Assembly (NCBI GenBank): GCA_946499505.1
Contig: CAMMSL010000004.1
Span: 62,001-126,000 of the forward strand
Origin: an uncultured Lachnoclostridium sp.
GTDB lineage: Bacteria; Bacillota; Clostridia; Lachnospirales; Lachnospiraceae
Direction: 5' to 3'
Length of the DNA: 64,000 nucleotides
Shown here: positions 33,511 through 51,370 of the stretch, in pieces
Layout: each line of letters begins with the position of its first letter
Position numbering within the stretch: position 1 is the stretch's first letter
The notes under the pieces: model-generated
Databases searched by the model: none
What the model was told of the DNA's origin: nothing
Seen by the model: the letters and a program-made list of their open reading frames with translations, nothing else
Made by a program: the position numbers and the translations under genes

Positions 33511-33526
33511 TGCCTTTTATGACAGA

Positions 33527-34027: not shown

Positions 34028-34036
34028 TTTTCTGTT

Positions 34037-34081
34037 CTCCTTTAGTTTTGTTTTACGAGTGGAAGGTCTCGAACACTCGAT
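34037..34081 (-). promoter_or_regulatory. preQ1-I riboswitch of queT, also the left attachment site
   Basis: On the minus strand a 6-bp stem CGAGTG/CACTCG encloses a 12-base loop that aligns to the preQ1-I consensus as UUCnAG-N5-CC across the loop and stem edge. An A-rich tail AAAACAAAACU leads into the AAAGGAG ribosome site, so ligand binding could close the pseudoknot and hide that site. Association with queT supports the assignment. Bases 34044-34081 are repeated exactly at 51235-51272. Confidence 0.78.
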
Positions 34082-34091
34082 AATGATACGC

Positions 34092-34126
34092 CAGAAACAA
34101 CGTGTTTGCGTTGCTTCTGGCGTTTT
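34092..34126. other. Hairpin at the left element end
   Basis: CGCCAGAAACAACG pairs with CGTTGCTTCTGGCG, about 14 bp with one wobble, between the element-borne promoter and the aptamer. In the queT direction it forms part of the leader. No T-run follows in that direction. Confidence 0.5.
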
Positions 34127-34128
34127 GT

Positions 34129-34157
34129 AGTATACCATGAATATATAAGAAAATCAA
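34129..34157 (-). promoter_or_regulatory. Element-borne outward promoter facing queT
   Basis: On the minus strand TTGATT (34152-34157), 17-base spacer, TATACT (34129-34134). It lies inside the mobile element and reads out through the left att aptamer into queT. Confidence 0.7.
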
Positions 34158-34160
34158 GAA

Positions 34161-34186
34161 TGTCCAAAAAATGTCCAAAATGGGAA
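34161..34186 (+). repeat. Left integrase arm-type repeats
   Basis: TGTCCAAAAAATGTCCAAAA followed by TGGGAA. The right end has the matching pair TGTCCAAAATTTGTCCAAC with TGGGA at 51111-51135. Paired short direct repeats inside each att site are typical of arm binding sites of tyrosine integrases. Confidence 0.6.
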
Positions 34187-34215
34187 ATTGATATTACTAA
34201 AAGGCGGTGCAACCA

Positions 34216-34503
34216 ATGAAGAATTATACTATAAAAATAGAAGTATACAGTAACAGCAAGGATAGGGTAAGAGTTTTAATAAATAAATATAAGCTGGATT
34301 TAATTATCGATGGATTTCGTGTTACAGGTGTTGAAGATACAGGAAATTACGTTATTGATGGTAAATTTCTAAAAAATATTATACGAGCAGAGCTATACAT
34401 CAGTGGCAATGATCGAAAAGATGTTATTCGGTCTATTGTACCTTTGACTACAGATGAAACAGTTTTGTCGTGGGAACTAGTATGTGATGACGAAAATGAA
34501 TAA
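34216..34503 (+). CDS. Small hypothetical protein of the element
   Basis: 95 residues, mixed alpha/beta, acidic end (CDDENE). No recognised domain. A GTG at 34207 is in frame, but AAGGCGGTG upstream fits the ATG at 34216. First gene at the left end of the element. Confidence 0.55.
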   Translation: MKNYTIKIEVYSNSKDRVRVLINKYKLDLIIDGFRVTGVEDTGNYVIDGKFLKNIIRAELYISGNDRKDVIRSIVPLTTDETVLSWELVCDDENE

Positions 34504-34574
34504 GTAATGCATTCAGCATTTGCACCAGATATAAGAATTTTTTTAGAAAATTGGAAAAAGGAGTGGTTATAAAC

Positions 34575-34883
34575 ATGGATTATATACAGAAAATTTTTGC
34601 AAGGGCAAAAATAAAGAATGTAATAGATCATCTTCTATACGGTCATGAGCCGGATACAGAGATTAACGACTATGAGAGCAGGATGGAAAAGGCATTTGCA
34701 CAGTATGGGGAAATTGTAGCTAAATACGATCCGAAGCGTAATTCAGAATTGTATGATGCTGCGAACGCACTGACAGAGGTAATATCAGCAGTTTATATGG
34801 AAATCGGTTTTCAGGCTGGACTCCTTTTTATGCAGGAGATTTATCACAATGGTGAAAAGCACAGAAGAGCGAACGGGGAATGA
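34575..34883 (+). CDS. Small helical hypothetical protein
   Basis: 102 residues (MDYIQKIFARAKIKNVIDHLLYG..), predicted all-helical. Small proteins with this kind of opening are common on clostridial plasmids and integrative elements; function unknown. AAAGGAG at 34557-34563 precedes the ATG. A bidirectional hairpin follows. Confidence 0.6.
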   Translation: MDYIQKIFARAKIKNVIDHLLYGHEPDTEINDYESRMEKAFAQYGEIVAKYDPKRNSELYDAANALTEVISAVYMEIGFQAGLLFMQEIYHNGEKHRRANGE

Positions 34884-34927
34884 ATTTAGTGAAATAGATG
34901 TTCTTAAACGATACAATGATGGAGAAA

Positions 34928-34951
34928 GGAGGGAAAGGGATATTTCCCTCC
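34928..34951. terminator. Terminator between converging element genes
   Basis: GGAGGGAAA (34928-34936) with TTTCCCTCC (34943-34951), followed by a short T-rich stretch. Confidence 0.65.
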
Positions 34952-34963
34952 TCGGCTAATTTT

Positions 34964-35152
34964 CTAATCAGAACAACTACCATGATAGATGTAATCTATT
35001 ACAGCCTGTCTTGCAATTTTCCAAGTTCGACCAATGCGGAATGCTTTTATCTTTTGAGCGTTTAGTAAATTGTAAGCAGTATTTTTCCCGATTGCCAGCA
35101 TATCACATAGCTCATCTACTGTTATCAGGTCACTGTATATATCTCGATTCAT
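34964..35152 (-). CDS. Excisionase-like helix-turn-helix protein
   Basis: 62 residues. A MerR/excisionase-type helix-turn-helix (LITVDELCDMLAIGKNTAYNLLNAQKIKAFRIGRTWKI) of the kind found in Tn916-type Xis proteins. The start at 35152 follows AAAGGAGG on the minus strand. It may help excision or regulate the mob genes that diverge from it. A second such protein is encoded at 49686. Confidence 0.75.
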   Translation of the reverse strand: MNRDIYSDLITVDELCDMLAIGKNTAYNLLNAQKIKAFRIGRTWKIARQAVIDYIYHGSCSD

Positions 35153-35280
35153 TAAAAAACCTCCTTTAATAAAATACTTATTTAATGTAGTGTTTAACAC
35201 TTTTTATATTCAAAAACAAAAAAGATAAAGTTAAAAAAGCAGAGATAAGTATTAAAAATTAAATGTAATTAACAATGAAG

Positions 35281-35350
35281 TAATCGACGCTTGGATAAGC
35301 TATCAGCGATTAATTTTATGTTTTGAGAATGGTATATACTTTTGCCATTC
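35281..35350. other. Candidate origin of transfer
   Basis: Nested inverted repeats TAATCG/CGATTA (35281-35286, 35307-35312) and GCTT/AAGC (35289-35292, 35297-35300), then GAATGG/CCATTC (35327-35332, 35345-35350), sit directly upstream of mobC and the relaxase gene. This is the usual place and architecture of an oriT. Confidence 0.45.
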
Positions 35351-35384
35351 TGGTTGAATACTGAAAAGAAAGGAGAAGATTTAT

Positions 35385-35687
35385 ATGCAAAGTAAGAAAA
35401 ATAGTAGATCTGTATGTTTAAAGCTATCAAAGGAAGAGTATCAGACACTTGAGAATAAGGCTAAACAAAGGAAGTTGGATAAGACTAATTATATAAGATA
35501 TTTAATATATACAGATCAAGACGATCTGTACAGTGTAAAAGCGGACAAGGCATTACAACAGATATCAGCGAGTACTGAGAATTTAGCTGACATCTGTAAT
35601 ATGAATAAACCAGATCTGGATGAGATCCATGAGAATTGTGATGAGATTATAAAGGGGGTAAAAATGTTATGGCGTTGTTTAAGGTAG
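35385..35687 (+). CDS. MobC-like relaxosome accessory protein
   Basis: 100 residues. The N-terminal part (SVCLKLSKEEYQTLENKAKQRKLDKTNYIRYLIY) is a ribbon-helix-helix DNA-binding motif as in MobC proteins, which open oriT DNA for the relaxase. It overlaps the relaxase gene by 19 bases. A good AAAGGAG site precedes the ATG. Confidence 0.75.
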   Translation: MQSKKNSRSVCLKLSKEEYQTLENKAKQRKLDKTNYIRYLIYTDQDDLYSVKADKALQQISASTENLADICNMNKPDLDEIHENCDEIIKGVKMLWRCLR

Positions 35688-36271
35688 CGAAAGAATTAGA
35701 GGAAGAATCACTGAATTATAAAGAATGTATATACAGATACAATAAAGATTTACGGAATTTACTCTTCTACTGCCATAATCATTGTACTTCCTGTGTAATG
35801 AATAATCTTTATTCTTTTGGAATGGAGTGTGTATATGATCAATTTCTGTATCTTCAAAAGAGAAGATTTAAGAAAATGGATACAAAGGCATTACACTTTA
35901 TCATCAGCTTTGATTCTTTGAATTATGAAAGCAATCTGGATAATAATACTCTTGAAAGTATTATGCAAATGCTGAGCAGATTCTGTTTTGCGGAGTATCA
36001 ACATATCTTGTTCCTGCATACTGATAAGCCGAGTCATCATCATATTCACTATATAGTCAATCCGGTGAATATAAGTAATTTACATATCTGCAGATGGTCT
36101 TTTTGGGGTGTGGCGTACAGTTTCGCAGAGGTTTTAAGCGACCTATATAATATGCCTTTAATTCCTGTAACTTATCAGGATGAACAGGGTCGTATAGTAA
36201 AAGGTACAGAAACAGGAAGTATGGCTTATCAGCAGCAGTTTATACAAAGATACAATTTAAAGGAAGGATAA
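35669..36271 (+). CDS. Short relaxase
   Basis: 200 residues. The three-histidine motif of rolling-circle relaxases is visible as SHHHIHYIVNPVN (about 127-139), preceded by a helical stretch and KALHFIISFD as the beta-strand motif. A catalytic tyrosine cannot be assigned with certainty (Tyr16, 22 and 24 are candidates). Only the endonuclease domain is present; no helicase or primase follows. Translation is coupled to mobC. Confidence 0.75.
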   Translation: MALFKVAKELEEESLNYKECIYRYNKDLRNLLFYCHNHCTSCVMNNLYSFGMECVYDQFLYLQKRRFKKMDTKALHFIISFDSLNYESNLDNNTLESIMQMLSRFCFAEYQHILFLHTDKPSHHHIHYIVNPVNISNLHICRWSFWGVAYSFAEVLSDLYNMPLIPVTYQDEQGRIVKGTETGSMAYQQQFIQRYNLKEG

Positions 36272-36354
36272 AATAGGAACAGGAGATTAAAAAATCATGC
36301 TGTTGTCGGCTGTAATGATTGCGAAGGTTACTCATTTTAGGAGGAATTGGAAAA

Positions 36355-37302
36355 ATGGAACAATTTAATATATTTGATTTTATAGATTCGGAAGATATCA
36401 GAAAGCATAATAAGGATACTTTGTTTTCTCCGACACAGAAAGCTTTTTTAATTAGACACTCTCAGAAACAGTCAATAGAAAATAAGATAAAGGCTATGGA
36501 CAGCCTGCTTCTTGAAAATTTGGACTGGGATTTTCCGTATATAGATGCTGATAATAAAAAGAGATCATTTAGAGAAATAGTTTCTGAAGAGGTCAGAGAA
36601 TGGAAAGAGGTTCTTGAAAAACGTTATGACAACAGAGAAGCTGTCTATATCTCCAGATTAAGTGAAGTAGAGTTTTTATCAAGTGATGAAGGGAATCCAA
36701 GATTCTTTTCTAATTATGCCAAAGCATATGAGAGCCTTGTGATTGCTAAAAAAAGATATCTTGATGACCTGGATCTGAAGGATGTACAAACATTAGGAGA
36801 GATTATCAGGATCACGGTAGATGCAGGTAATGCAAGTTATGGTTACGATGAAAGACACTATCTGTTCGATACAGATATGAGATTGATTGATGTGTACAGA
36901 AAATGCCATGAGGATAACTGCCTTGTGAACGGCATGGATGCTTACCGGTGTTATATTCCAGTGCCGTTTAAAGCTGGAGATATTGTGAAGTGTGTATCCC
37001 CTTATCATGAGACATATTATGGAGTGTTTCCATATGACTGGGAGGAGCCGAAAAACAAATATGGGATATCAATGTATGCATCGTTAGATACGTATTATGC
37101 AAAAGAAAAGCTCTTTGAAATTACAGATGATACGTTGGTTCTGGAATTGTCAAAATGTAAGCATGATGAATTACCAGAGGATCAGAGAATACTCAAGGTG
37201 ATTAGCGCTGTAAGAAAAGGAGAGCTGGATTTTTATACTGTACTGAATCAAATGAGTTTTCATAAACTGGATGATTTGGTAAAGTGGTTTTATAAAGAAT
37301 GA
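36355..37302 (+). CDS. Hypothetical protein, element-encoded
   Basis: 315 residues, no recognised domain. Rich in Asp, Glu and Tyr; a C-terminal repeat-like end (VISAVRKGELDFYTVLNQMSFHKLDDLVKWFYKE). The start at 36355 follows TAGGAGGA. Similar soluble proteins occur next to mob genes on clostridial elements. Followed by a strong terminator. Confidence 0.6.
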   Translation: MEQFNIFDFIDSEDIRKHNKDTLFSPTQKAFLIRHSQKQSIENKIKAMDSLLLENLDWDFPYIDADNKKRSFREIVSEEVREWKEVLEKRYDNREAVYISRLSEVEFLSSDEGNPRFFSNYAKAYESLVIAKKRYLDDLDLKDVQTLGEIIRITVDAGNASYGYDERHYLFDTDMRLIDVYRKCHEDNCLVNGMDAYRCYIPVPFKAGDIVKCVSPYHETYYGVFPYDWEEPKNKYGISMYASLDTYYAKEKLFEITDDTLVLELSKCKHDELPEDQRILKVISAVRKGELDFYTVLNQMSFHKLDDLVKWFYKE

Positions 37303-37312
37303 TTGCTTGATG

Positions 37313-37338
37313 GTGGTAAGACCGTACGGTCTTACCAC
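37313..37338. terminator. Perfect palindromic terminator
   Basis: GTGGTAAGACCGT (37313-37325) is followed at once by its complement (37326-37338) and TTTGT. Confidence 0.7.
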
Positions 37339-37461
37339 TTTGTACTTGTGGAAAAATAAGGAAATTTACAAGAGAAAAAACAATGGTAAAAGCAAAAGAT
37401 TTAGTTTTGAAAAATGTGTATAGTAAAGGTATTTCAACAGGAAAGGTGGGGAACCAATGCA

Positions 37462-37716
37462 TTGTATATTGAAATGAAAAATAAGGACGGCTTGGTGGAG
37501 ATATATGGTCAGCTGGTTGATCTGGTAGGGCTCGAGAACACAGAAAAAATTTATTATACTCTCCGGGGACAGCAGATAGTATTTCCAATGAGACTGTATA
37601 AAACGGAGTTTATATCAAAAGAAGTAAGAAGGCGATATAACGGTAAGAATCTAAAAGAACTTGCAAATGAATATGGATATACAGAAAGATATCTACGTAG
37701 TTTTTTAAAAAAATAA
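37462..37716 (+). CDS. Mor-like helix-turn-helix protein
   Basis: About 84 residues if the TTG at 37462 is used (GGTGGGG lies 10 bases upstream); the ATG at 37474 would give 80. The C-terminus RRRYNGKNLKELANEYGYTERYLRSFLKK is a helix-turn-helix resembling the Mor transcription activators of phages. The N-terminal part DLVGLENTEKIYYTLRGQQIVFP also fits that family. A likely regulator of the element. Confidence 0.6.
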   Translation: MYIEMKNKDGLVEIYGQLVDLVGLENTEKIYYTLRGQQIVFPMRLYKTEFISKEVRRRYNGKNLKELANEYGYTERYLRSFLKK

Positions 37717-37730
37717 GATGGGAGAATCAG

Positions 37731-38747
37731 ATGAAAAAGATATTTAGTATAGCTTTAATTTGTGCCATGATTTTAACTGCTGGTGGATGTGGGCAAGATA
37801 AAAAACCAACATCCGATGAAATTGAAGGAGGCAAGGTTACATTAGCTGACGACATGGAATCGAACAATGACAAGGAAACTGTTGAAGAACCCGAGCAATC
37901 TGAAGAGGAGCTTGGAACTTTAGAACAGTTTGAAAAGGATGTCAAAGCAGGTCTGTTATATGAAAATGACCAAGGACAGGTTACAGATAAGGATGGGAAT
38001 GTTCTTCCGGAATATGAGTGGGTCTTAAGAAATGATTATTCCACATTGGCTACGATGGACGGAGAAGACTATACTCTTTTAGAGCATTTTTGGATAGAGG
38101 ATACCGGTTTGATTACATATAATGAAGAGGTGGAAATCGATAAGCCTGAACCATTAGAATCAACAGGTAATCCTTATCTTGATAATTTGCGTAATAATGT
38201 TGCAAATTTAGATAGAGAAAATGCAGAAATAGTTGTTGAGGAAAATCCTTTTGGTACAGGAGATACACAGACGCGGATAGCATCAGATTTAAATGAATAT
38301 CACTCTGATATTATATTTGGTAATTGGTGGGTTGATAAGCAGATTAATGGTACACCTATTGCAGAACAGCTTCCGATGACTATAGCCCGTGCAATGGCAA
38401 ATGCCAATTATTCTTCAAATAGTTATTCCGAGTTTAATGCAACAACTGTTCTCGATAAATTTAGATTTGTAGATCAGGATACATGTACTGTAGATTCTAT
38501 AAAGCGGATGGATTCATCAGATACTACTTGCTATGGTTTTTACTTGGAAAGCTGTCAGAAGAATACAGATGATTACGGCAACAGATATTTTACAGGATAT
38601 ATAGATACTGATTATGTTGTAGTATATGGTGATTTTGACAAGATATTGAATGATGACAATGTATTTATGTATGCCGATTTTATAGGCTTAAGCGATGATG
38701 ATGTTCCGATTTTTGTTGGTGCTTACGCTGAAATAATCACGGAGTAG
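37731..38747 (+). CDS. Predicted lipoprotein
   Basis: 338 residues. A signal peptide with lipobox AGGC (Cys about 20) is followed by an acidic Glu-rich linker and a domain with no recognised family. Exported and lipid-anchored on the outer face of the membrane. It forms a pair with the membrane protein 13 bases downstream. Confidence 0.65.
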   Translation: MKKIFSIALICAMILTAGGCGQDKKPTSDEIEGGKVTLADDMESNNDKETVEEPEQSEEELGTLEQFEKDVKAGLLYENDQGQVTDKDGNVLPEYEWVLRNDYSTLATMDGEDYTLLEHFWIEDTGLITYNEEVEIDKPEPLESTGNPYLDNLRNNVANLDRENAEIVVEENPFGTGDTQTRIASDLNEYHSDIIFGNWWVDKQINGTPIAEQLPMTIARAMANANYSSNSYSEFNATTVLDKFRFVDQDTCTVDSIKRMDSSDTTCYGFYLESCQKNTDDYGNRYFTGYIDTDYVVVYGDFDKILNDDNVFMYADFIGLSDDDVPIFVGAYAEIITE

Positions 38748-38760
38748 AGAGAGATTAGTT

Positions 38761-39246
38761 ATGAAAGAAACATATGGAAAACTAAATAAAAATACAAGGA
38801 TTGCTGTCTATATTATTATTGAGCTTATTGCAATTGTGCTTATGTACAAAACTGTTGTTGCTATGGCAACTTATATTAGTTGGTTTGGCATTATTGACGG
38901 AGGTCTGGCAAACTTATCGTTCTGGTTAAATCTTGTAGGATTTGTTGTTGGATGTTTTCTTATGAATACAGGCTATAAGCTGATGGATGAAACAAATACT
39001 TTTATTACTAATACCAAAATTGCGATGATTATGGTAGTTTTATCAAAAATATTAATGGTTATATCTGGGATTGTATTTATATATAACATAGTAGTGATAT
39101 TCAGGTTTAGTGGCATTAGTATTGCAATACTGTATGCAATAGTTCCGTCTGCGATATGGGAAATGCTTTCTCTTGCAGTAAAAAGTATAATGGTTATATT
39201 CGCTGAAAAAGGCATTTCAGATGATATAAAGAACGGAATAGTTTAA
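38761..39246 (+). CDS. Four-helix membrane protein
   Basis: 161 residues with four hydrophobic segments (about 15-37, 52-72, 88-110, 118-148). No recognised family. It follows the lipoprotein gene closely and may work with it at the cell surface. Confidence 0.6.
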   Translation: MKETYGKLNKNTRIAVYIIIELIAIVLMYKTVVAMATYISWFGIIDGGLANLSFWLNLVGFVVGCFLMNTGYKLMDETNTFITNTKIAMIMVVLSKILMVISGIVFIYNIVVIFRFSGISIAILYAIVPSAIWEMLSLAVKSIMVIFAEKGISDDIKNGIV

Positions 39247-39332
39247 TGATAAAAGATGCTGTTCTTTAGAGACCAATAAAAGATATTTATACAATTTCAA
39301 TTATATATTATAATAGTGATAACACTACCTGC

Positions 39333-39367
39333 GGGCAGAACTCATTACGGGTTCTGTCCTATTTTTA
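39333..39367 (+). terminator. Attenuator-like hairpin before a small peptide gene
   Basis: GGGCAGAAC (39333-39341) with GTTCTGTCC (39351-39359), followed by TATTTTTAT. It lies 20 bases before the small peptide gene at 39388 and after a TATAAT-like box (39308-39313). Confidence 0.55.
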
Positions 39368-39387
39368 TGTCCGGAAGGAGGGTGCCA

Positions 39388-39462
39388 ATGGATAAGATCA
39401 TTATAGCTCTTCTGGGAGCTGCTGCTGTAATCGTCCAGCAGATTTTCAGAGATGACGATTAA
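39388..39462 (+). CDS. 24-residue hydrophobic peptide
   Basis: MDKIIIALLGAAAVIVQQIF then charged RDDD. One membrane helix with a charged tail behind GGAAGGAGGG. Size and layout resemble small membrane peptides, including type I toxins, but no antisense RNA is proven. It could also be a short leader peptide for the DUF932 gene. Confidence 0.5.
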   Translation: MDKIIIALLGAAAVIVQQIFRDDD

Positions 39463-39533
39463 GAAATCTTTGTAACAGAAACAAACCAATTTACAAACAA
39501 TTATGAATTAAAAAATCAAAGGAGGACTTTATT

Positions 39534-40469
39534 ATGTCAGCAAATGTAGAATCAATGTTTTATGTAAGAGAAACCCCGTGGCACGGACTGGGAACAAAGG
39601 TTATGACAGCTCCGGATTCAAGAGAGGCTCTGATCGCGGCAGGGTTAAACTGGAACGTGATTCAGGAACCGATTTATACGACAGAAAATGAGCCGATCAA
39701 AGGTTATAAAGCAAATGTCCGTGATTCAGACCGCAAGGTGCTGGGAGTCGTTACAGACCGCTATAAGGTTGTCCAGAATCACGAAGCCTTTTCATTTACG
39801 GATGAACTTCTTGGTCAGGGTGTCAGATATGAAACAGCCGGAAGTCTTCAGGACGGTAAGAAAGTATGGTTACTGGCACATATGCCCCATGAATATATCA
39901 TTTCAGGTGAGCGGATCAGCCCGTATCTCCTGTTCTCCAATACCCATGACGGATCAGGCGCAATCAAAGTGGCTCTGACTCCGATCCGTGTCGTATGCAA
40001 CAATACCTTGAATCTGGCGTTAAAGACGGCTGAACGGTCATGGTCTATGATCCATACAGGGGATATTAAAAGCAAAATGAAAGAAGCGAGCGACACGCTT
40101 TTTAAAGCAGAGAGATATATGGACGAGCTTGGAAAAGAGTTTGAACAGCTCAGGATGCATAAGCTCACTGATCAGGAGGTCATGGATTATATCGAGATCC
40201 TGCTTCCTGTTGAGGATGGATCAACGCCACAGCAGATCAGGAACATGAAACGCCTGCAGGAAGATATGAAGAGCAGGTATTTTGATGCTCCCGATCTGAA
40301 AGATACCGGAAAGAATGCTTACAGATTCATCAATGCAGTATCAGACTTCGCTACCCATGCTAAACCATTAAGGCAGACTGCGAAATATAAAGAGAATCTG
40401 TTTTCTAAAACTGTAGAGGGCAATCCGTTAATTGACAGAGCATATCAGCTTGTAAGCATGGCTGCATAG
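39534..40469 (+). CDS. DUF932 phage/plasmid-like protein
   Basis: 311 residues. The opening MFYVRETPWHGLGTKV and TPIRVVCNNTLNLAL are typical of the DUF932 family found on phages and plasmids, biochemical role unknown. It heads a tight run with YqaJ and RecT, suggesting a link to DNA recombination or anti-restriction. Confidence 0.85.
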   Translation: MSANVESMFYVRETPWHGLGTKVMTAPDSREALIAAGLNWNVIQEPIYTTENEPIKGYKANVRDSDRKVLGVVTDRYKVVQNHEAFSFTDELLGQGVRYETAGSLQDGKKVWLLAHMPHEYIISGERISPYLLFSNTHDGSGAIKVALTPIRVVCNNTLNLALKTAERSWSMIHTGDIKSKMKEASDTLFKAERYMDELGKEFEQLRMHKLTDQEVMDYIEILLPVEDGSTPQQIRNMKRLQEDMKSRYFDAPDLKDTGKNAYRFINAVSDFATHAKPLRQTAKYKENLFSKTVEGNPLIDRAYQLVSMAA

Positions 40470-40483
40470 GAGGCACAAACCGT

Positions 40484-41410
40484 ATGAAGAAACTTGTATC
40501 AACATTAAATCTTGATAAAGAAAGTTGGCTCAAATACAGAAAACAAGGGATTGGCGGTTCAGATGCAGGTGCAGTATGCGGGCTGAACCCATACCGTACT
40601 GCGATTCAGGTCTACTATGATAAGACTTCCGATTCGATAGAGGACGTTGATAACGAGGCTATGAGACAGGGAAGAGAGCTTGAAGAGTATGTTGCAAGAC
40701 GTTTCTGTGAAGCATCTGGAAAGAAAGTAAGGCGCGCAAACGCTATGTTCTATGATGAAAAGAACCCGTTTATGCTTGCAGATGTTGACCGTATGATCGT
40801 TGGTGAGAACGCAGGATTAGAGTGCAAGACAGCAAGTCCGTATTCAGAAGAAAAATGGCGGGATGATAAAATCCCGCTTTCGTATCAGCTTCAATGCTAC
40901 CACTATATGAGCGTGTGTAATGCGGACTCATGGTATATTGCCGTGCTGATCTATGGGAGAGACTTTAAATATTACAGGATTGAAAGAGATGATGAAGTGA
41001 TCGAAAATCTGATCCGTATAGAGAAAGAATTTTGGAATGAATATGTACGAAAACAAGTCATTCCTGATCCTGACGGTTCCAAAACAGCGGACGTGGCGAT
41101 TGCAGAACGATTCAAAGAATCTAAGAGCATTACCATACCATTGACAGGTTTTGATGAACGATTGGAACGCAGACAAGAGCTCCTGTCTTTATTGGAGAAG
41201 ATAGAGACGGAAAAACGGCAGATCGATCAGGAACTGAAATTATATCTTGGTGACGCAGAAATAGCTGAAAATGAGCATTACCGGGTATCATGGAAAAACT
41301 TCAGCCGGAGCAGTATAGATGAAAAGCGCCTGAAAGCAGAACAGCCGGAAATCTATGAAAAATATCGGAGGAAAACTATAAGCCGAAGATTTACAGTGAA
41401 AGCAGCATAG
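40484..41410 (+). CDS. YqaJ-family exonuclease
   Basis: 308 residues. Lambda-exonuclease-like PD-(D/E)XK fold: WLKYRKQGIGGSDAGAVCGLNPY at the N-terminus, the catalytic MLADVDRMI and LECKTAS motifs in the middle, and LSYQLQCYHYM. Partner of RecT: the exonuclease resects DNA ends and RecT anneals the single strands. It is 14 bases after the DUF932 gene. Confidence 0.92.
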   Translation: MKKLVSTLNLDKESWLKYRKQGIGGSDAGAVCGLNPYRTAIQVYYDKTSDSIEDVDNEAMRQGRELEEYVARRFCEASGKKVRRANAMFYDEKNPFMLADVDRMIVGENAGLECKTASPYSEEKWRDDKIPLSYQLQCYHYMSVCNADSWYIAVLIYGRDFKYYRIERDDEVIENLIRIEKEFWNEYVRKQVIPDPDGSKTADVAIAERFKESKSITIPLTGFDERLERRQELLSLLEKIETEKRQIDQELKLYLGDAEIAENEHYRVSWKNFSRSSIDEKRLKAEQPEIYEKYRRKTISRRFTVKAA

Positions 41411-41426
41411 GAGAGGATAAAACACA

Positions 41427-41540
41427 ATGAAGTTTAGTGTCATAAAGCTATGTATTATTTTAGTGATGGTGCTCATCTTTCTGATACTTTTCAAAGAACA
41501 GCTTATTGAATTGATTTCAGAGATTGTACATGGGATATGA
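41427..41540 (+). CDS. 37-residue single-span membrane peptide
   Basis: MKFSVIKLCIILVMVLIFLI followed by LFKEQLIELISEIVHGI. One membrane helix then an amphipathic helix, behind GGAGAGGA. Between the exonuclease and recT genes. Function unknown. Confidence 0.5.
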   Translation: MKFSVIKLCIILVMVLIFLILFKEQLIELISEIVHGI

Positions 41541-41554
41541 AATATATGGATAAG

Positions 41555-41584
41555 GCGGCAGGATTTTCTGGTCCTGTCGCTTTT
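41555..41584 (+). terminator. Intrinsic terminator in the recombination module
   Basis: GCGGCAGGA (41555-41563) with TCCTGTCGC (41572-41580), then TTTT. Confidence 0.6.
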
Positions 41585-41660
41585 GAGGTCAGGGAAATGA
41601 AATACAGAGAAAAATTATTATATTGGATTCTTAAAATATTATTGAAGGAGGACTAGGAAA

Positions 41661-42479
41661 ATGGCAGCGAGAGCTACAAACAGTGTAAAAGAAGAACTTG
41701 CAAAGAAAGCGGAAACAAAAGCAGTAGGAGAAAAGAAACTGACAAGATCTATGAGTATTGCAGATCTGATAAAGGCAATGGCGCCGGAGATTAAGAAAGC
41801 TCTGCCGGAGGTTATTACACCGGAACGGTTTACCCGGATGGCTTTGTCAGCATTAAATACAACGCCTAAATTACAGGAGTGTACACAAATGAGTTTCCTT
41901 GCGGCGCTTATGAATGCGGCGCAACTTGGTCTGGAACCGAACACACCGCTCGGGCAGGCATATCTGATTCCGTTTAATAATAAAGGAACTATGGAGTGTC
42001 AGTTCCAGATCGGATATAAAGGGCTGATCGACTTGGGATACCGCAATCCTCAAATGCAGATCATTTCTGCACAGGCAGTCTATGAGAATGACGAATTTGA
42101 ATATGAACTTGGTCTGAATCCGAAACTGGAGCACAGACCTGCATTGCATGACCGTGGGGAGCTGAGACTTTTCTACGGTCTTTTTAAACTTGTCAACGGT
42201 GGATTTGGGTTTGAGGTTATGAGCAAAGAGGCTGTGGACGCATACGCGAAGGAATACTCTAAATCGTTTGATTCTTCATTCAGTCCGTGGAAAACAAATT
42301 ATGAAGCAATGGCGAAGAAAACCGTGATCAAACAGGCCCTTAAATATGCTCCGATCAAAGCAGATTTCAGGAAAGCATTATCTACAGATGAAACGATCAA
42401 GAACGAGATTGCGGAAGATATGTCGGAAATTCAGGACGAAAATATTTTTGATACAGAATATACAGAGCAGACAGCATAA
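41661..42479 (+). CDS. recT: RecT single-strand annealing protein
   Basis: 272 residues with RecT family motifs LIKAMAPEIKKALPEVITPERFTRMALSAL, CTQMSFLAALMNAAQLGLEPN and CQFQIGYKGLIDLGYRN. Anneals complementary single strands made by the YqaJ exonuclease. Preceded by AAGGAGGA. The pair gives the element its own homologous recombination, useful in repair or after transfer. Confidence 0.94.
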   Translation: MAARATNSVKEELAKKAETKAVGEKKLTRSMSIADLIKAMAPEIKKALPEVITPERFTRMALSALNTTPKLQECTQMSFLAALMNAAQLGLEPNTPLGQAYLIPFNNKGTMECQFQIGYKGLIDLGYRNPQMQIISAQAVYENDEFEYELGLNPKLEHRPALHDRGELRLFYGLFKLVNGGFGFEVMSKEAVDAYAKEYSKSFDSSFSPWKTNYEAMAKKTVIKQALKYAPIKADFRKALSTDETIKNEIAEDMSEIQDENIFDTEYTEQTA

Positions 42480-42504
42480 TCAATAAGAAACGGAGAAGAT
42501 AAAA

Positions 42505-43398: not shown

Positions 43399-43496
43399 GA
43401 GAATAGACGCTTTTAAATGAGAAACAGGTGGAGATTATTATGTTTTTGAAGTATAATTTAGAAGAAACACGGAAACACCGACAGGGGAGACATAAT

Positions 43497-44861: not shown

Positions 44862-44939
44862 CTCATGGAGGGGGCTTCATGAGGTATCATGAATTCCTCC
44901 CAAATATATAGGATTGAAAAATTTAGACCTCAAAAGGAG

Positions 44940-44970
44940 ATAGCCCATAGAAAAAATCTATGGGCTATTT
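44940..44970 (+). terminator. Intrinsic terminator
   Basis: ATAGCCCATAGA (44940-44951) with TCTATGGGCTAT (44957-44968), then TTT. Confidence 0.8.
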
Positions 44971-45082
44971 TAAATGGGGAAACGGTTACGGTTCACACCT
45001 AACCGCCGCCCGCATGCGCACTCGTCGCGCTGATGTGCTCCAGTCCCGCATTACGTGCTAAGGCTGCTTATAGTGACGGCGA

Positions 45083-46684
45083 TTACGAGTTCCACTCGTA
45101 TTCAGGAACAAGGAAACGCCTCTCATATGTGAGCCTGACGCTGTATTCCCTTATTCCTGAGTACGGTGTGAACTGTAACTGAAAAAGTGTTTTAAAATTT
45201 ATTATCATTTCAGCAACTTCCGCTTGTGTCATTGAAAGAGAAAATCCTGTGTTTGGAATATGGCTCATTATTAACTCTAGAGCTGGTAAGTCAAATTCAG
45301 GAATTATAGAGCATATTAGCTTTAGAATGTCTGTTGTTTTCCATTCTACTGAATTGGGATATCTTAAACTATTATAGATTACGCCGCTTATATATATGGA
45401 GAAAATTGCGTGACTTTTTTGAAACTCATTATTTATACATTTTTTGAAATGTTCGAGGTTTTTCTTAAAAGATTTTTCTAGCTCTGCCAAATAATCAATA
45501 TTAGTTGGTAAAGAAGTATAGGAAGGGGAAGACGGAGAACTGCACTTTTCTTGGTTCTCCTTAAACTTAGAAAAATCTTTAATTGTTTCATTGTAATATT
45601 TAGTGATAATTTTAGATATAGATGTCATATGTATATTATACTCATGTGTTGACATACTTATCGCCCCATTTTTCAAGCGTTCTGAGATTTGAGAATCCTT
45701 TTTTACATTGTTGATATAATCGGTGAAGTCTTTTTCTATAGCGCCAGAAATGGATTTGAGTTTTTTTAAATAGCAAGTATATTTAGGCAGAATATCAGAG
45801 AAATTGTCAATTGCAATTGACTTACTTGGATTATGCCCGTTTGCTTTGATAATGTCAGAGACAGTGGAAACAATCTCGTCAGAATAGTATTTTAGTGTAC
45901 CGTAATAAGTGTTGACAAATTTCAATTCTGAATCGAGCAAATAGGGAATTCGCCTATCATAAAGTTGGTCAGATGCATATGAACTTAGAATTTTCCTATA
46001 AGTATCAAGAGAGCATGTTAAATACGAAGAAATATGTTCTGGATTGTAGAGGAGCAAAAGAGTAAGGCCGCGTGTAGAACTCTGCAGTATCCGTTTTTGT
46101 TCAGGTGTTTTGGAAAATTCATTATATAATTTGTTTAAACGGATGAAATAATTTTGACCTAAATGTTGATTTGCCCAATTATCATATATTGAAAAAAAGT
46201 TTTCTTTTAAGGGAGTACGAATGTATGGTATTCCTCTTTTTAAATAATACGCCCAAGTAGAAAAAAAGTTAGATATGGATTGGCTATCGGATCCGGTGGC
46301 AGAAAAGAAATATGCCGCAAAAATGGGCATAAAGTTATAAGGTATATTCCAAATAAAATCAGTCATCGCATAGCCATCCTGAGAACAAGTTGTTTTGTTA
46401 AATTGGATATACTTATTGTGAACCAAGTAGTTACACATTATTTTATGAATATATAAAAGTTCTTCGCAATCAGAAATATTTAATTGAGTTAAAGAAAGAT
46501 ACATAGGATTACTCAAATCAAATGAACAAAAATAGAGTTTTTCTTCTAACGCATTTAGACGCTTATTAAAAGTATTATACGCATAGATATCACTGATTTG
46601 TTTTATGAATGTAAAACTCTCTTTTTTGGTTCTGATTGTTTTTCCGCAGGATAAATAATTTTCAAGATTTATTGGGTTACTCAT
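45083..46684 (-). CDS. Unknown 533-residue protein, lone minus-strand gene
   Basis: 533 residues, rich in Ser, Asn, Tyr, Ile and Lys, predicted soluble and mostly helical. No known motif is visible: no P-loop, nuclease or helix-turn-helix motif that I can recognise. Codon use is markedly AT-rich compared with neighbours. AGGAG precedes the ATG on the minus strand, and an inverted repeat (46710-46744) lies in its upstream region. It is flanked by a terminator and a divergent operon, the position of a cargo gene. Confidence 0.6.
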   Translation of the reverse strand: MSNPINLENYLSCGKTIRTKKESFTFIKQISDIYAYNTFNKRLNALEEKLYFCSFDLSNPMYLSLTQLNISDCEELLYIHKIMCNYLVHNKYIQFNKTTCSQDGYAMTDFIWNIPYNFMPIFAAYFFSATGSDSQSISNFFSTWAYYLKRGIPYIRTPLKENFFSIYDNWANQHLGQNYFIRLNKLYNEFSKTPEQKRILQSSTRGLTLLLLYNPEHISSYLTCSLDTYRKILSSYASDQLYDRRIPYLLDSELKFVNTYYGTLKYYSDEIVSTVSDIIKANGHNPSKSIAIDNFSDILPKYTCYLKKLKSISGAIEKDFTDYINNVKKDSQISERLKNGAISMSTHEYNIHMTSISKIITKYYNETIKDFSKFKENQEKCSSPSSPSYTSLPTNIDYLAELEKSFKKNLEHFKKCINNEFQKSHAIFSIYISGVIYNSLRYPNSVEWKTTDILKLICSIIPEFDLPALELIMSHIPNTGFSLSMTQAEVAEMIINFKTLFQLQFTPYSGIREYSVRLTYERRFLVPEYEWNS

Positions 46685-46709
46685 TAGTGATGCTCCTTTT
46701 CAAAAAGTC

Positions 46710-46744
46710 AATTATCAAAAATACGTCACTTTTTTTTGATAATT
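46710..46744. promoter_or_regulatory. Inverted repeat in the divergent control region
   Basis: AATTATCAAAAA (46710-46721) faces TTTTTTGATAATT (46732-46744). It lies between the lone minus-strand gene and the plus-strand ATPase module. Possible operator. Confidence 0.4.
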
Positions 46745-46914
46745 GTTCGGCTCCTTATGCCTGTGTTTTAATATAGCTGTCAACAAATTATATCACGCCC
46801 GGTTTTTTTATAAAAGTTTTTTTCGCTGATTTAAAAGTACAGTAATTTTCGGGAAATTTGCGGAAATTTATTTTGGATTTTGAAAAAATCCGGGCAAAAG
46901 GAGGTAGAAATCGA

Positions 46915-47532
46915 ATGTATGAAAATGCAATGGCATCCCAGCAAAACGCAATGGCGGAGTATTGGAACCGGAAAGCAATCGACACAAATATGTCTGTGGC
47001 GAAAGAGTGGCAATTGAACGAAGCTAAATTGGCTCTGGCGCACCAAAAAATGACACTGCAGGAATGGCGGAAGGAGCAACAGAAGACGAGGCATGAAAGC
47101 ATCGCGATCTCTGAAAATGGCGAGATTAAGCGTACAGTCGAAAATGCAATCGTGAAAGTTCCGGAGTGTTCATGTGTCAATTTCCAGTTTATTTCTCTTG
47201 TAGAGGTGGTAAGCACGGAAGGAGACGAAGGATTATATCGGCTTCGATTACGGATTGGACAGGCGGTGAAAGTGCTCGTTCTTGATGCACAAAAGATGGG
47301 GAGCCCAACGTACTTCGTCCGTAAGCTCACAGAGGTTGGAGCCGTAATCTTGCTGGACAGACGGCGTGACCGGGAGAATTTCCTGGTGCAGCTGTGGAGT
47401 TTGTTGCTCTCCTTGTGTAGAGAGAGGATTTTAGTACCGACGTGTGCCGGATGGAATAAGGTTCAAGGAAGATTTAGGTTTGTGGAAGAGGAGGTGATGT
47501 TATGGGGAGAAATGAAGAAATCTGCAAAATAA
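46915..47532 (+). CDS. Unknown protein, first of a three-gene ATPase module
   Basis: 205 residues. The N-terminal 60 residues are Gln/Ala-rich and helical (ASQQNAMAEYWNRKAIDTNM); the C-terminal part has beta-strands and PTCAGWNKVQGRFRFVEEE, reminiscent of the xGWxxxxGxWxF segment of DUF927 helicase-like proteins. AAAGGAGGT precedes the ATG at 46915. Its end overlaps the next gene by 31 bases. Confidence 0.6.
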   Translation: MYENAMASQQNAMAEYWNRKAIDTNMSVAKEWQLNEAKLALAHQKMTLQEWRKEQQKTRHESIAISENGEIKRTVENAIVKVPECSCVNFQFISLVEVVSTEGDEGLYRLRLRIGQAVKVLVLDAQKMGSPTYFVRKLTEVGAVILLDRRRDRENFLVQLWSLLLSLCRERILVPTCAGWNKVQGRFRFVEEEVMLWGEMKKSAK

Positions 47533-48620
47533 ATTGGCTGGCGCTCATGCTGTTTGCTAGTTCTTTTCTGAGGGTCATCCTGTCCGATTTTGGGAGTCAG
47601 ATGGACGAAGGTTTCGTCATTTTGACAGATCAAGAGATAGAAGCCCGTCAGTTCATTACAGATTACTGCGGAAATGCTGGAAGAAACGGACAGCGTATTT
47701 ATAAGTGGAAGAGAGAGAAGATGCAAGTGTCCAATTTTTGTTGTGGAATGCTACTCTTAAATCCTAAAAAACCTGGAGAAGCCATGGAATTTCTCGAAGA
47801 AACAGAGTTTTTTCCGGTGGTTGTAACAGGCGGGATAGTGCCTGCCGAATTGCGTTGTGCCCGTTATATATTTCGGGCTACGCGTGAAGACACGTTGTAT
47901 ATGCAGAAAGAAGAAAGTGCAGATTCTATAGGAAAATTCCGGACATTTATCATTTCGGAAACAGAAACGGTCTGTAAGGTCATACGCTCTGCCCAAAATA
48001 GTACTGCCCTTGCAGAATATCAAGGAAGAGATGAATATCTGAGGCTTTTTACTTCATGCATTACAATCGGCAAGGTATACAAAAGCTATCTGGAGCAGGA
48101 TACATCAGATGGAGATGCCGAAAGATTTTGGAAGAATTTCTTGCGGGAGACGTACAGGAGGATCCAGACGATACCGGATTTCGCATCCGGGGAAGATCTG
48201 TGTGAAATGGTGGCAGATTTGGTCTGGACCTATGTAAAACAGCAAGGAAATGTATTGTTAGCTGATGCGGAACAGATATGTGGGAGGGCCTTTAATGCAT
48301 TGGAAGAGAATAGGCTCATCATCTACGATGCCGAGTACTACTACTTTACAACCCCATTATTCTCTGAAATTTTTCGACCATTGTTACAAACAATGTCTGT
48401 CCCGGAACTAAAGCGGTGTATGTCGGATGAAGGAATTTTGCGTTGCAATTCATCTGATTACACCGTGAAAAAACAGGTTACCACAGTGTTTGGGACGAAA
48501 GAGAGAATAAGAGTGTTAAGAATGACAAAAGAAATGCTGATGTCACGGGATAATCTTTTTTTGGAAGATTTTTTTGATGATGTAGAAGGTGGGAGGAGTG
48601 AAATCGAATGTTCTATGTAG
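47502..48620 (+). CDS. Unknown protein, second of a three-gene ATPase module
   Basis: 372 residues, no recognised domain and no P-loop. A hydrophobic stretch near the start (LALMLFASSFLRVIL) precedes TDQEIEARQFITDYC. It overlaps both neighbours (31 and 13 bases), so the three proteins are made together. Starts at 47502 behind GAGGAGGTG. It might be a remnant or variant of an ATPase domain, as the position corresponds to that part of DUF927-type proteins; this is speculation. Confidence 0.6.
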   Translation: MGRNEEICKINWLALMLFASSFLRVILSDFGSQMDEGFVILTDQEIEARQFITDYCGNAGRNGQRIYKWKREKMQVSNFCCGMLLLNPKKPGEAMEFLEETEFFPVVVTGGIVPAELRCARYIFRATREDTLYMQKEESADSIGKFRTFIISETETVCKVIRSAQNSTALAEYQGRDEYLRLFTSCITIGKVYKSYLEQDTSDGDAERFWKNFLRETYRRIQTIPDFASGEDLCEMVADLVWTYVKQQGNVLLADAEQICGRAFNALEENRLIIYDAEYYYFTTPLFSEIFRPLLQTMSVPELKRCMSDEGILRCNSSDYTVKKQVTTVFGTKERIRVLRMTKEMLMSRDNLFLEDFFDDVEGGRSEIECSM

Positions 48621-49666
48621 GAAAAATCACCGGAGGAGTAGATGTTTTAATCGGTAATGGATCTCCCAATGAGCATGTTGTTATTTCGGGTATGAGCGGG
48701 GCAGGAAAATCAGTGAGAATAGCGGACATCGAGAGACATATCCTTGAACAAAATAGAACAATCATTGCCTTAGATATCAATGGGACGCATGCTGATATAG
48801 GAGGCCCATCATGTCTTCATATTTCAGCGCAGAAAGACGGATTGGATTTTCGCTTTCTCGACACATCATTTGTAAAAATAGGGCAGGAGACAAGGTCGAA
48901 TTTGGTGCAGTATGCAGTGGAAACCTTGTGCCCACGGCAATTACGAGGAGCCTGTCAATTAGCGGCGGTATATAAGGCGATGGATTTTGCAATCGAAAAT
49001 GCCAAAGATTTTGATTGCGAGATGGATGCGATTGCCAACGGCTTAAAAGAACAAGATGATGCGGCTGCAGTAGGAGCTTATAATCATCTTCGGCCTATTC
49101 TGGAAGGACAAATTTTCAGAAAAAGCCGAAAGCATATTGAAAGAGGGAAGTTGAATGTGTTTTCTCTCCAAGGGCTTAATCCGAAAACCCAGAAGCGAGT
49201 GAGCGAAATTGTGCTTTCTGCTATCTGGCGGAGGCTTAGGATCGAAGGAATGTGTGGAGCAAAATTCACGCTGGTTTTGGACGAATTTCAGAACTTGGAC
49301 TTACATAAGGACACAGCCTTTTTTCAGATGCTGACAGAGTCGAGGAAATATGGCGTGAACATGATACTGGCAACGCAAACGCTTGCAACTTTCTCAAAGA
49401 AGGAGCTTGCAATTATTGATCAGGCAGCGGTAAAACTGTATTTTAAGCCAAGTACTTCGGATGTGAAAACAATTGCGGCGTTAGTTGACACGAAACATTA
49501 TGATCGATGGGTCTCAAAATTATTAAAACTTCAAATAGGACAGGCAATCACTGTCGGAGACTTTGAAGTGAAAGGGCGAAGAATTATACAGCCTATTCTG
49601 ACATATTCAGAATTTTTCGAGGCGAACAAAGTGGTTCCGGTTGGTTTGAAGTTTAGAGAGGTATGA
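48608..49666 (+). CDS. HerA/FtsK-like DNA translocase ATPase
   Basis: 352 residues. Walker A GMSGAGKS (about 28-35), Walker B FTLVLDEFQN (about 220) and MILATQTLATF as the sensor segment place it in the HerA/FtsK/VirD4 superfamily. It is short, with no membrane segment. On a mobilizable element it could be a coupling protein that hands relaxase-DNA to a helper secretion system; HerA-like ATPases also occur in defence operons. Confidence 0.8.
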   Translation: MFYVGKITGGVDVLIGNGSPNEHVVISGMSGAGKSVRIADIERHILEQNRTIIALDINGTHADIGGPSCLHISAQKDGLDFRFLDTSFVKIGQETRSNLVQYAVETLCPRQLRGACQLAAVYKAMDFAIENAKDFDCEMDAIANGLKEQDDAAAVGAYNHLRPILEGQIFRKSRKHIERGKLNVFSLQGLNPKTQKRVSEIVLSAIWRRLRIEGMCGAKFTLVLDEFQNLDLHKDTAFFQMLTESRKYGVNMILATQTLATFSKKELAIIDQAAVKLYFKPSTSDVKTIAALVDTKHYDRWVSKLLKLQIGQAITVGDFEVKGRRIIQPILTYSEFFEANKVVPVGLKFREV

Positions 49667-49685
49667 TGCAAAGGAGGAAATTTTA

Positions 49686-49883
49686 GTGAGGAAAACAACG
49701 GAGAGAGAAGATACAATTCAGACGTTATGTGTAAACCGAACAGAGCTTCCTAAGCTTTTGGGCTGTGGTCAGGCAACTGCGGACCGGCTTTCAATTGACG
49801 CGGGAGCACGAATAAAAATTGGAAAGCGAGTTTTGATCAAGCTGGATAAGCTGAACAGTTATCTGGAGACGATCGCAGAATAG
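49686..49883 (+). CDS. xis: Excisionase/DNA-binding protein
   Basis: 65 residues with a helix-turn-helix TELPKLLGCGQATADRLSIDAGARIKIGKRVLI of the Tn916-type excisionase class. GTG start behind AAAGGAGGA. Directly upstream of the integrase gene, as expected for the excision helper. Confidence 0.8.
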   Translation: MRKTTEREDTIQTLCVNRTELPKLLGCGQATADRLSIDAGARIKIGKRVLIKLDKLNSYLETIAE

Positions 49884-49888
49884 AAATT

Positions 49889-49924
49889 GAAATCCGGGGA
49901 TGCCTGAGGGCATCCTCGAATTTC
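49889..49924 (+). promoter_or_regulatory. Hairpin between xis and int
   Basis: A 16-bp stem with one mismatch: arms 49889-49904 and 49909-49924 (core GGATGCC-TGAG-GGCATCC). It ends five bases before the GGGAGGA ribosome site. It could limit integrase expression relative to excisionase. Confidence 0.5.
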
Positions 49925-49941
49925 TAAGGGAGGAATTTTTA

Positions 49942-51066
49942 ATGGCAGTTGACAAAAAAGGCAGGAAACTGCCGAAGGGAATACGACAGAGGGGTCAGAC
50001 ATACGAAGGACGCCTAATGTATGAATACCAGAATTATACTGTTCATGGGCGGACGATCAGTGAAACCCAGAAAGCACTAACAGATCTGAAATACAGGTTA
50101 GAGCATGGAATGTATACAAATAATGTAAAATTGACCTTTGATAAATGGTTTAATACGTGGATGGAAGATTATAAAAAGAATCAGGTAAAGATTGGAACAT
50201 ATTTATGTTATCGGAAGTATTATGCTGGGATGATAAAAGAGACGATAGGACAAAAGCAGGTTAATAGTATACGTGGTGATGACATACAAAAATTGTATAA
50301 TGTATGGGTAAAAAGGGAATATGCGATATCTTCGATTAAAATAGCATCAGCAGTATTAAACGGCTGTTTTAAGCAGGCGGAGAAAAACGGACTTATCGAG
50401 CGGAACCCCGTAAAACTTGCCACATTACCAAGAAAAGGGAAAAAGAGAAAGAGGATAAAAGTCTTGACAAAAGATCAGCAGATATTATTTATGGAATATG
50501 CAAGACAGAGCTATCTATACAATTTGTTTGAGGTGATGATAAGAACTGGAATGAGAAGCGGTGAGGTAAGAGGTCTTATATATGGCCTTGATATTGATAA
50601 GAAAAAGAGGGTTATACATATTCAACGGACTTTGAAATATGAAAGTGGAATGGGTTTTTTTACAGATACACCCAAAACAAAAACGTCTGAACGGGAAATA
50701 CCGCTGACAAAAGAAGTTGAACAGTATTTAGATGCTCAGCAAAAGCTATGGTGGGGAAATGTGATCCGAATGGATCGCTTCCTATTCTGTAATTATAATG
50801 GAGATCCGTTGAGCAGAGAATGCTTGCAAGGAGAAATAGACCGAATTGTAGATCAGATTAGAAAAGACGGTCATAAATTCCCACGAATCACCTCCCATGT
50901 ATTCCGCCACACATTTGCTACCAGAGCAATAGAGGCAGGGATGCAGCCACAGGTTCTTAAGGCGATATTAGGACATAGTTCTCTGGCAATGACAATGGAC
51001 TTGTATTCCCATGTGTTGCCGGATTCAAAAGCAGAAGAAATGGAGAAGATAGCAAAAGCATTTTAA
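49942..51066 (+). CDS. int: Tyrosine-type integrase
   Basis: 374 residues. An N-terminal AP2-like arm-binding domain and a core-binding domain lead into the catalytic domain with Arg in TGMRSGEVRG (about 203), HxxR in HVFRHTFATR (about 319) and the Tyr nucleophile in MDLYSHV (about 354). GGGAGGA upstream supports the ATG at 49942. It catalyses insertion and excision at the 38-bp att repeat, 168 bases downstream. Family as in Tn916 and ICESt-type elements. Confidence 0.95.
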   Translation: MAVDKKGRKLPKGIRQRGQTYEGRLMYEYQNYTVHGRTISETQKALTDLKYRLEHGMYTNNVKLTFDKWFNTWMEDYKKNQVKIGTYLCYRKYYAGMIKETIGQKQVNSIRGDDIQKLYNVWVKREYAISSIKIASAVLNGCFKQAEKNGLIERNPVKLATLPRKGKKRKRIKVLTKDQQILFMEYARQSYLYNLFEVMIRTGMRSGEVRGLIYGLDIDKKKRVIHIQRTLKYESGMGFFTDTPKTKTSEREIPLTKEVEQYLDAQQKLWWGNVIRMDRFLFCNYNGDPLSRECLQGEIDRIVDQIRKDGHKFPRITSHVFRHTFATRAIEAGMQPQVLKAILGHSSLAMTMDLYSHVLPDSKAEEMEKIAKAF

Positions 51067-51097
51067 GCAGGATATTTGAGGGTATCCTGCTTATTTT
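51065..51097 (+). terminator. Intrinsic terminator of int
   Basis: AAGCAGGATA (51065-51074) with TATCCTGCTT (51083-51092), followed by ATTTTAAT. Confidence 0.8.
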
Positions 51098-51110
51098 AAT
51101 ATTTTGGACT

Positions 51111-51135
51111 TGTCCAAAATTTGTCCAACTTGGGA
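51111..51135 (+). repeat. Right integrase arm-type repeats
   Basis: TGTCCAAAATTTGTCCAAC followed by TTGGGA, matching the left copy at 34161-34186. Confidence 0.6.
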
Positions 51136-51165
51136 TATTAAGTGATAGGTAAAGATAAAAAGAAA

Positions 51166-51194
51166 TTCTCCTGAAATCAACTGTTTCAGGAGAA
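51166..51194 (-). terminator. Terminator facing the displaced queT promoter
   Basis: TTCTCCTGAAA (51166-51176) with TTTCAGGAGAA (51184-51194); on the minus strand it is followed by a T-run. It would stop transcripts entering the element from the host promoter at 51342. Confidence 0.7.
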
Positions 51195-51234
51195 GATATA
51201 ACGTGATAAACTCATTAAAATCTATGGATTATAA

Positions 51235-51272
51235 AGTTTTGTTTTACGAGTGGAAGGTCTCGAACACTCGAT
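51235..51272 (-). repeat. Right attachment site, second copy of the preQ1 aptamer
   Basis: Identical to 34044-34081 over 38 bases, including the CGAGTG/CACTCG stem. Without the AAAGGAG site and queT it can no longer control translation. It is still transcribed from the host promoter at 51342. Confidence 0.85.
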
Positions 51273-51341
51273 TCATTTAACGCCGGGAATCGGCGGCAAG
51301 CCCGATAGACCTTGGTTTTTGTGGACTTTGCAACGTGAGAT

Positions 51342-51370
51342 AGTATAACACGGCAATAATACAAAATCAA
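51342..51370 (-). promoter_or_regulatory. Former promoter of queT
   Basis: On the minus strand TTGATT (51365-51370), 17-base spacer, TATACT (51342-51347). It points at the right att copy and into the element. Confidence 0.65.

Follow-up and report, generated by a model that had tools for sequence, protein, structure and literature searches.

Genes for tRNA and tmRNA serve integrases as attachment sites, a short conserved structured RNA offering a constant target that is restored by the element. According to the passages available to us, dusA-specific islands, IMEVchUSA3 and SXT in prfC insert at the 5' end of a gene and provide it with a new promoter and 5' part (PMC8409611, PMC4482086), and a prophage of Enterococcus cecorum is integrated in a PreQ1 riboswitch, with a change in expression proposed (PMC10117131). 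Here we analyse a 64,000-nucleotide stretch from an uncultured Lachnoclostridium sp. (contig CAMMSL010000004.1, positions 62,001 to 126,000; ‘the window’), whose congeners are named Mediterraneibacter (Lachnospiraceae), and in which a 17.2-kb integrative element, probably mobilizable and one of a family in gut bacteria, lies against queT, a preQ1 transporter gene. We put at about 0.82 the probability that this element was integrated by its own tyrosine integrase into the preQ1-I riboswitch of queT and that its end supplies the gene with a new promoter, leader and hairpin, so that regulation can persist.

Like the dusA and prfC elements, the queT elements carry a tyrosine integrase, appear to supply a promoter and 5' part and displace the native 5' part; the former, in the passages available, bring a promoter and N-terminal coding sequence in proteobacteria, whereas the queT elements would bring a promoter, leader and riboswitch hairpin in Lachnospiraceae. 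The sequence-level hallmark of that class, a target-gene promoter inside the element with the arms outside the promoter, was found at queT. The E. cecorum prophage shares with the queT elements integration of a mobile element at a preQ1 riboswitch; compared by description, it differs in its relation to a Streptococcus EJ-1 record and in its downstream gene, a nucleoside hydrolase, and the passages seen of that paper, unlike the queT case, contain nothing on a supplied promoter or aptamer. Its publication corrects the original prediction, made from the window's sequence, to whose author no described preQ1 case was known. Set against tRNA and tmRNA sites, the queT target is a cis-regulatory riboswitch of which the element restores the 5' side plus a promoter; set against published preQ1-I type I riboswitches, the queT copy scores under the Rfam gathering score and doubles as an integrase target. 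Among the matches listed from the literature searched, which mostly excluded subscription papers, there was no queT attachment site and no element supplying a riboswitch hairpin; the available parts of a Clostridioides difficile riboswitch review (PMC11477304) contain nothing on a preQ1 attachment site, and those of a Listeria paper (PMC3556495) nothing relevant. Integration in a preQ1 riboswitch and promoter supply by elements are already known, and what appears to be new here is an element-derived promoter, leader and, most likely, hairpin at queT.

The element is bounded by a 38-bp direct repeat with 100% identical copies, the sole repeat family of at least 20 bp detected within 33500-52000 (Table 1). 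Read on the minus strand, the repeat forms a hairpin of 6 bp that closes a 12-nt loop, followed by an A-rich tail preceding queT, and it stops right before the ribosome site AAAGGAG, as had been predicted for an aptamer and its tail. Chance was excluded as the origin of the repeat because the same arrangement recurs in other genomes, and attachment at a tRNA or tmRNA gene was rejected, ARAGORN finding none anywhere in the window.

In the mechanism that we propose, the tyrosine integrase would insert the element into the queT preQ1-I type I riboswitch by strand exchange in the invariant tail TAAAACAAAA, immediately 3' of the hairpin. Through its end, the element would supply queT with a new promoter, leader and hairpin, joined to the host's tail end and ribosome site, so that queT could stay expressed and preQ1-controlled. 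The host promoter, leader and hairpin would be pushed to the far end, pointing into the right end of the element, where in the window a terminator-like hairpin precedes the integrase gene. Because the RNA requires an unchanged loop and tail, it would present integrases, much like tRNA genes, with a DNA target that stays constant.

The Rfam model RF00522 matched the queT copy end to end with 26.7 bits (minus strand, 34036-34084; E = 0.00093 in 201 bases and E = 0.0034 genome-wide), the best match in the genome, and the far copy with 16.8 bits. Type I aptamers are described, in the passages available, as having UU atop the 5' P1 strand, UC before the 3' P1 strand, and C and CUA in the tail, with queT as a target gene (PMC8752633, PMC11625349); an alignment read showed UU, UC, C and CUA all in place at the queT copy. 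Among 18 distinct rows, one P1 pair was split evenly between A-U (9) and U-A (9), another pair had one unpaired cell, and the covariation score was reached by none of 500 shuffles, a comparison that ignores relatedness. GGTGAG/CTCACC stems occurred in other loci with P1 pairing retained. We take the hairpin to be a preQ1-I type I riboswitch, with ligand binding predicted. Ten other RNA-family matches in the same 201 bases (NrrF, SpF25, miRNA and other families) were rejected, all lying far under their own gathering scores.

Upstream of the aptamer, AAGGTC was present in 44 of 58 distinct leaders (43 as AAGGTCT; 1.0 expected in mononucleotide shuffles, kinship ignored), for example in the leader at 51273-51340 of the window, minus strand. 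This motif is complementary to the aptamer loop AGACCTT, frequently sits in a hairpin loop and might interfere with folding of the aptamer; it is absent from the window's queT-side leader. In some congeners, two recurring extra hairpin modules of ~50-90 nt were seen by eye between leader and aptamer, one set in L012, L019, L022, L026 and L030 and the other in L013, L021 and L029.

Element-free queT leaders, which the original prediction expected in relatives, were present in two congeners (L065 and L069), where the exonuclease gene, a short leader, the aptamer and queT are contiguous; the exonuclease gene was on the same stretch in 11 of 29 queT loci from congeners. A covariance model built on the site, R1, found it in 52 of 58 congeners, with a second, shortened copy (model positions 1-36) in five (G000, G003, G270, G275 and G278). 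These were exactly the congeners with an integrase of at least 64% identity, and the sixth integrase of the genus (G021, 46% identity) was accompanied by no second copy; by a hand calculation that ignores kinship, such concordance would arise by chance about once in 4.6 million. Among the matches listed, covering the integrases of 30 congeners, only that of G003 sits in the queT–exonuclease interval.

This interval also carries other insertions, for example sugar-uptake genes and Uma2 genes. Genes for putative nucleases of the Uma2 family adjoin the queT leader in L047 (1047-1622, minus strand; Pfam) and, by resemblance, in L050, L059 and L066. The exonuclease gene of G008 (L051, 1007-1050) nearly abuts AAAACTAAAGGAG of queT, the promoter, leader and hairpin being lost.

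Across the family, R1 detected the site in 236 of the 397 genomes sampled and gave two matches in 22. Both matches were on one contig and strand, 2-17 kb apart, in nine of these (G000, G084, G198, G204, G215, G689, G707, G737 and G756); in the remainder the second match lay on another contig or, in G223, on the opposite strand. Related integrases turned up in 5 of the other congeners among the 58 searched (46-66% identity), in 7 other genomes of a 200-genome family sample (45-62%) and at 9 loci of named genomes, three sets that overlap. In 11 loci there are two copies, the one with AAAGGAG lying beside queT, and an integrase or its remnant separates them (the window, L081, L082 from Claveliimonas bilis, L083, L084, L086 from Galacturonibacter, L089/L107, L100, L102, L103 and L104), with only a remnant in L089/L107 (Faecalicatena contorta) and L103. 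Together, recurrence, empty sites and integrase concordance support well the prediction of a mobile element that uses the queT preQ1-I aptamer as its attachment site.

Less regular loci were also found. In L108 (from G223) the copies are on opposite strands (2322-6280) with an integrase fragment outside them, which suggests an inversion. L085/L098, L087, L106, L109 and L110 each have a single displaced or partial copy in the stretch examined, and L096 has an integrase fragment ~2 kb from queT and a single aptamer copy. A single origin of queT targeting was rejected: three changes of the label are needed on the integrase tree, and the choice of target is therefore not confined to one clade. Viral contigs yielded no relative of the integrase, and those in phage and plasmid records were all below 60% identity. 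Elsewhere in the phylum, 48 of 398 genomes searched had a preQ1-I match, and only G449 had two nearby copies on the same strand (contig 6, 2532 and 4077, 1.5 kb apart, both above gathering).

Among the related integrases, the gene in L092/L088 (5570-8528) is split by ~1.8 kb, its C-terminal piece being 94% identical to the window's integrase. Those of L097 (downstream of 1257) and L091 (below 10103, downstream of the integrase) lie, by eye, near a motif that we take to resemble a thiamine pyrophosphate (TPP) riboswitch and near a transporter S component-like gene; other metabolite-gene targets are conceivable for related integrases.

Where strand exchange occurs was addressed by comparing paired hairpins, leaving out L098 and L110, which have no partner copy. 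P1 differs between the two ends in the same-contig pairs L083, L084 and L102, and in L106/L111 across two contigs, yet all 28 hairpins of 14 two-copy loci were paired at 6/6 positions; exchange inside the hairpin would leave mismatches and is thus disfavoured. On the 3' side, a shared block of 12 bp (TAAAACAAAACT) was found in 13 of 15 pairs (11 bp in L101, 10 bp in L105), and on the 5' side 13 of 15 pairs had only 0-2 bp in common, which is too short for the overlap region of a tyrosine recombinase. Because 10-12 bp are common 3' of the hairpin in every pair and so little 5' of it in most, exchange in the tail is the best reading, and the hairpin at queT would then be element-derived.

Each of seven elements, picked by hand from the two-copy loci then available, had an element-specific motif common to both ends: TGTCCAAAAT in the window, GTACCAAAAAAGTACC in L081 and L082 (a variant in L089), GTACCCACAAT in L083 and L084, and TTTTACACAGATT in L086. 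We infer from position and repetition that they serve as arm sites for the integrase. Those on the queT side start ~80-115 bp inside the hairpin, with a promoter-like site between arms and aptamer, and most two-copy loci have same-type -35 and extended -10 sites on that side. Of 14 two-copy leaders on the queT side, 12 have a period-11 tandem (at least 7 exact bases) adjoining the -35, against 0.08 expected from shuffled sequences; the exceptions are L101, whose repeat has period 12, and L093/L086, for which the wrong -10 was picked by the script (the L093 repeat, CTGTGTA, was read by eye). Among the far-side leaders of these 14 loci, that of L082 alone passed. L109, a lone partial copy classed as ‘far’ by the script, also passed, and may be an element end severed from queT. 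The leader analysis left out L073, in which no -10 was found, and leaders with fewer than 250 bases upstream.

Because the tandem marks the queT side and hardly ever the far side, we regard the queT-side promoter as element DNA and the far-side promoter as the displaced host promoter; the arm repeats lie beyond the queT-side promoter, and promoter, leader and, most likely, hairpin at queT would therefore come from the element. The prediction that insertion simply leaves the host's aptamer intact at queT thus needs correcting; only the tail end and ribosome site would be the host's own.

Instead of the spare aptamer that had been supposed, the far end would carry the displaced host hairpin and old promoter. 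In 13 of 15 pairs the tail of the far copy has CUU, in L101 it has CAU and in L105 it is lost; lacking the type I CUA, the far copy is unlikely to be a working riboswitch. A terminator-like hairpin lies within 190 nt downstream in 8 of 18 far copies under strict rules (0.5 expected in mononucleotide shuffles); a similar but interrupted hairpin past the far copy in L082-L084, and a new ribosome-site-like stretch with ATG at the far end of L086, were seen by eye.

Leaders without a second copy retain traces of the same architecture: 7 of 27 have kept the period-11 tandem intact at the -35, where shuffled sequences would give 0.14, and the other 20 have none intact, some looking degenerate by eye. 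In L082 the displaced leader has GTGGGTA-type arms and the resident element GTACC-type arms, as if one element had inserted over the end of an earlier one. Such arm relics at single-copy queT promoters suggest serial replacement. It may even be, although we rate this at slightly worse than even odds, that promoter, leader and hairpin of Lachnospiraceae queT are mobile DNA, overwritten by successive elements of differing arm specificity that leave their ends on decay, repeatedly swapping the regulatory RNA and influencing host preQ1 uptake.

Some observations weigh against these interpretations, and alternatives were considered in their light. At the gathering score of 39 bits, RF00522 has no match in the window and none in 15 related loci tested; 26.7 bits being below that score, nothing is reported there, and the prediction that the preQ1-I model would match both repeats was borne out solely at sub-gathering scores. 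The hairpin might accordingly be some other conserved RNA or DNA element of queT, but the end-to-end match, the type I signature, the queT context and the covarying stem contradict this, and many other Bacillota preQ1-I matches fall in the same score range as the window's, so that we hold it to be very improbable. Exchange 5' of the hairpin, with the host aptamer staying with queT as originally supposed and only promoter and leader replaced, would preserve P1 matching within each hairpin equally well, and the common 5' block of 9 bp in L102 and 5 bp in L101 would allow it in those two loci; the near-absence of such a block in the other 13 pairs, against the 3' block in all 15, makes it a poor prospect overall. 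Least credible of all, with hardly any weight in our assessment, is an origin of the two copies in leader duplication or homologous exchange: the interval does hold other insertions, and L101 and L105 have two copies with no integrase found, but the shared ends are precise, the arm repeats match at both ends, and integrase and second copy agree in 5 of 5 cases in the genus.

It is also unlikely, though less so than these, that insertion breaks control, leaving queT cut from its promoter and silent or unregulated, in line with the changed expression proposed for the E. cecorum prophage (PMC10117131, passages available). The old promoter is displaced by 17 kb and the promoter scan of the window is, on its own, at chance level at both ends (Table 1), so the promoter case rests on recurrence across loci. 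That recurrence, with same-type -10 and -35 sites beside the arms, and the retention of hairpin, tail and ribosome site at queT speak for persisting control. Integration at the riboswitch also has to accommodate six integrases of 42-62% identity (L090, L091, L092, L094, L095 and L097) with no such site in the stretch examined, two of which group among queT-site integrases in the tree, and elements beyond the stretch examined could account for some of the seven relic leaders.

The window's element has the integrase, the direct repeats as ends and the empty sites in relatives that characterize integrative elements; excision and transfer are predicted. Among its candidate mobilization genes, the relaxase domain is clear but the protein is short, the MobC-like match is weak and the ATPase is HerA/TraD-like.

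Table 1 Features of the element and its flanks in the window
Feature	Position	Strand	Basis
queT, preQ1 transporter gene under the riboswitch	33527..34027	-	PF06177, E 3.2e-49
queT ribosome site AAAGGAG, immediately past the repeat	34037..34043	-	sequence; queT ATG at 34027
queT-side attachment repeat (aptamer hairpin and tail)	34044..34081	-	exact repeat; RF00522 26.7 bits over 34036-34084
Promoter-like TTGATT-17-TATACT within element end, facing queT	34129..34157	-	scan, 1 found vs 1.2 expected; same type at other queT leaders
Left arm-type repeats TGTCCAAA	34160..34181	+	sequence
NikA/MobC-like mobilization protein	35385..35687	+	PF21983, 22.4 bits, under cut-off 27 (weak)
Short MobA/VirD2-like relaxase	35669..36271	+	PF03432, E 4.5e-12
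DUF932, YqaJ nuclease and RecT module	39534..42479	+	domain matches
HerA/TraD-like ATPase, possible coupling protein	48608..49666	+	PF01935, PF10412, PF12696
Small DUF6462 protein, candidate excisionase (by position)	49686..49883	+	PF20063, E 4.7e-8
Tyrosine integrase, next to far end	49900..51066	+	PF00589 E 3e-25, PF14659
Right arm-type repeats TGTCCAA	51110..51130	+	sequence
Terminator-like hairpin between far copy and integrase gene	51166..51194	-	3 found in region vs 0.2 expected
Far attachment repeat (putative displaced hairpin, tail CUU not CUA)	51235..51272	-	exact repeat; RF00522 16.8 bits
Putative displaced old queT promoter, TTGATT-17-TATACT	51342..51370	-	scan, 2 found vs 1.1 expected; same position at empty sites
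Host exonuclease gene, neighbouring queT where sites are empty	51415..52110	-	PF00929

A metabolite-sensing RNA would thus join the kinds of conserved RNA exploited by integrases, and its matching replacement illustrates a way for an element to settle in a regulatory RNA and yet spare control. Because arm relics persist at some single-copy queT promoters, the insertion of elements may be one way in which bacteria come to exchange promoters and riboswitches, with old and new leader coexisting in one genome. If such serial overwriting takes place, the riboswitch serves these elements as both landing site and cargo.

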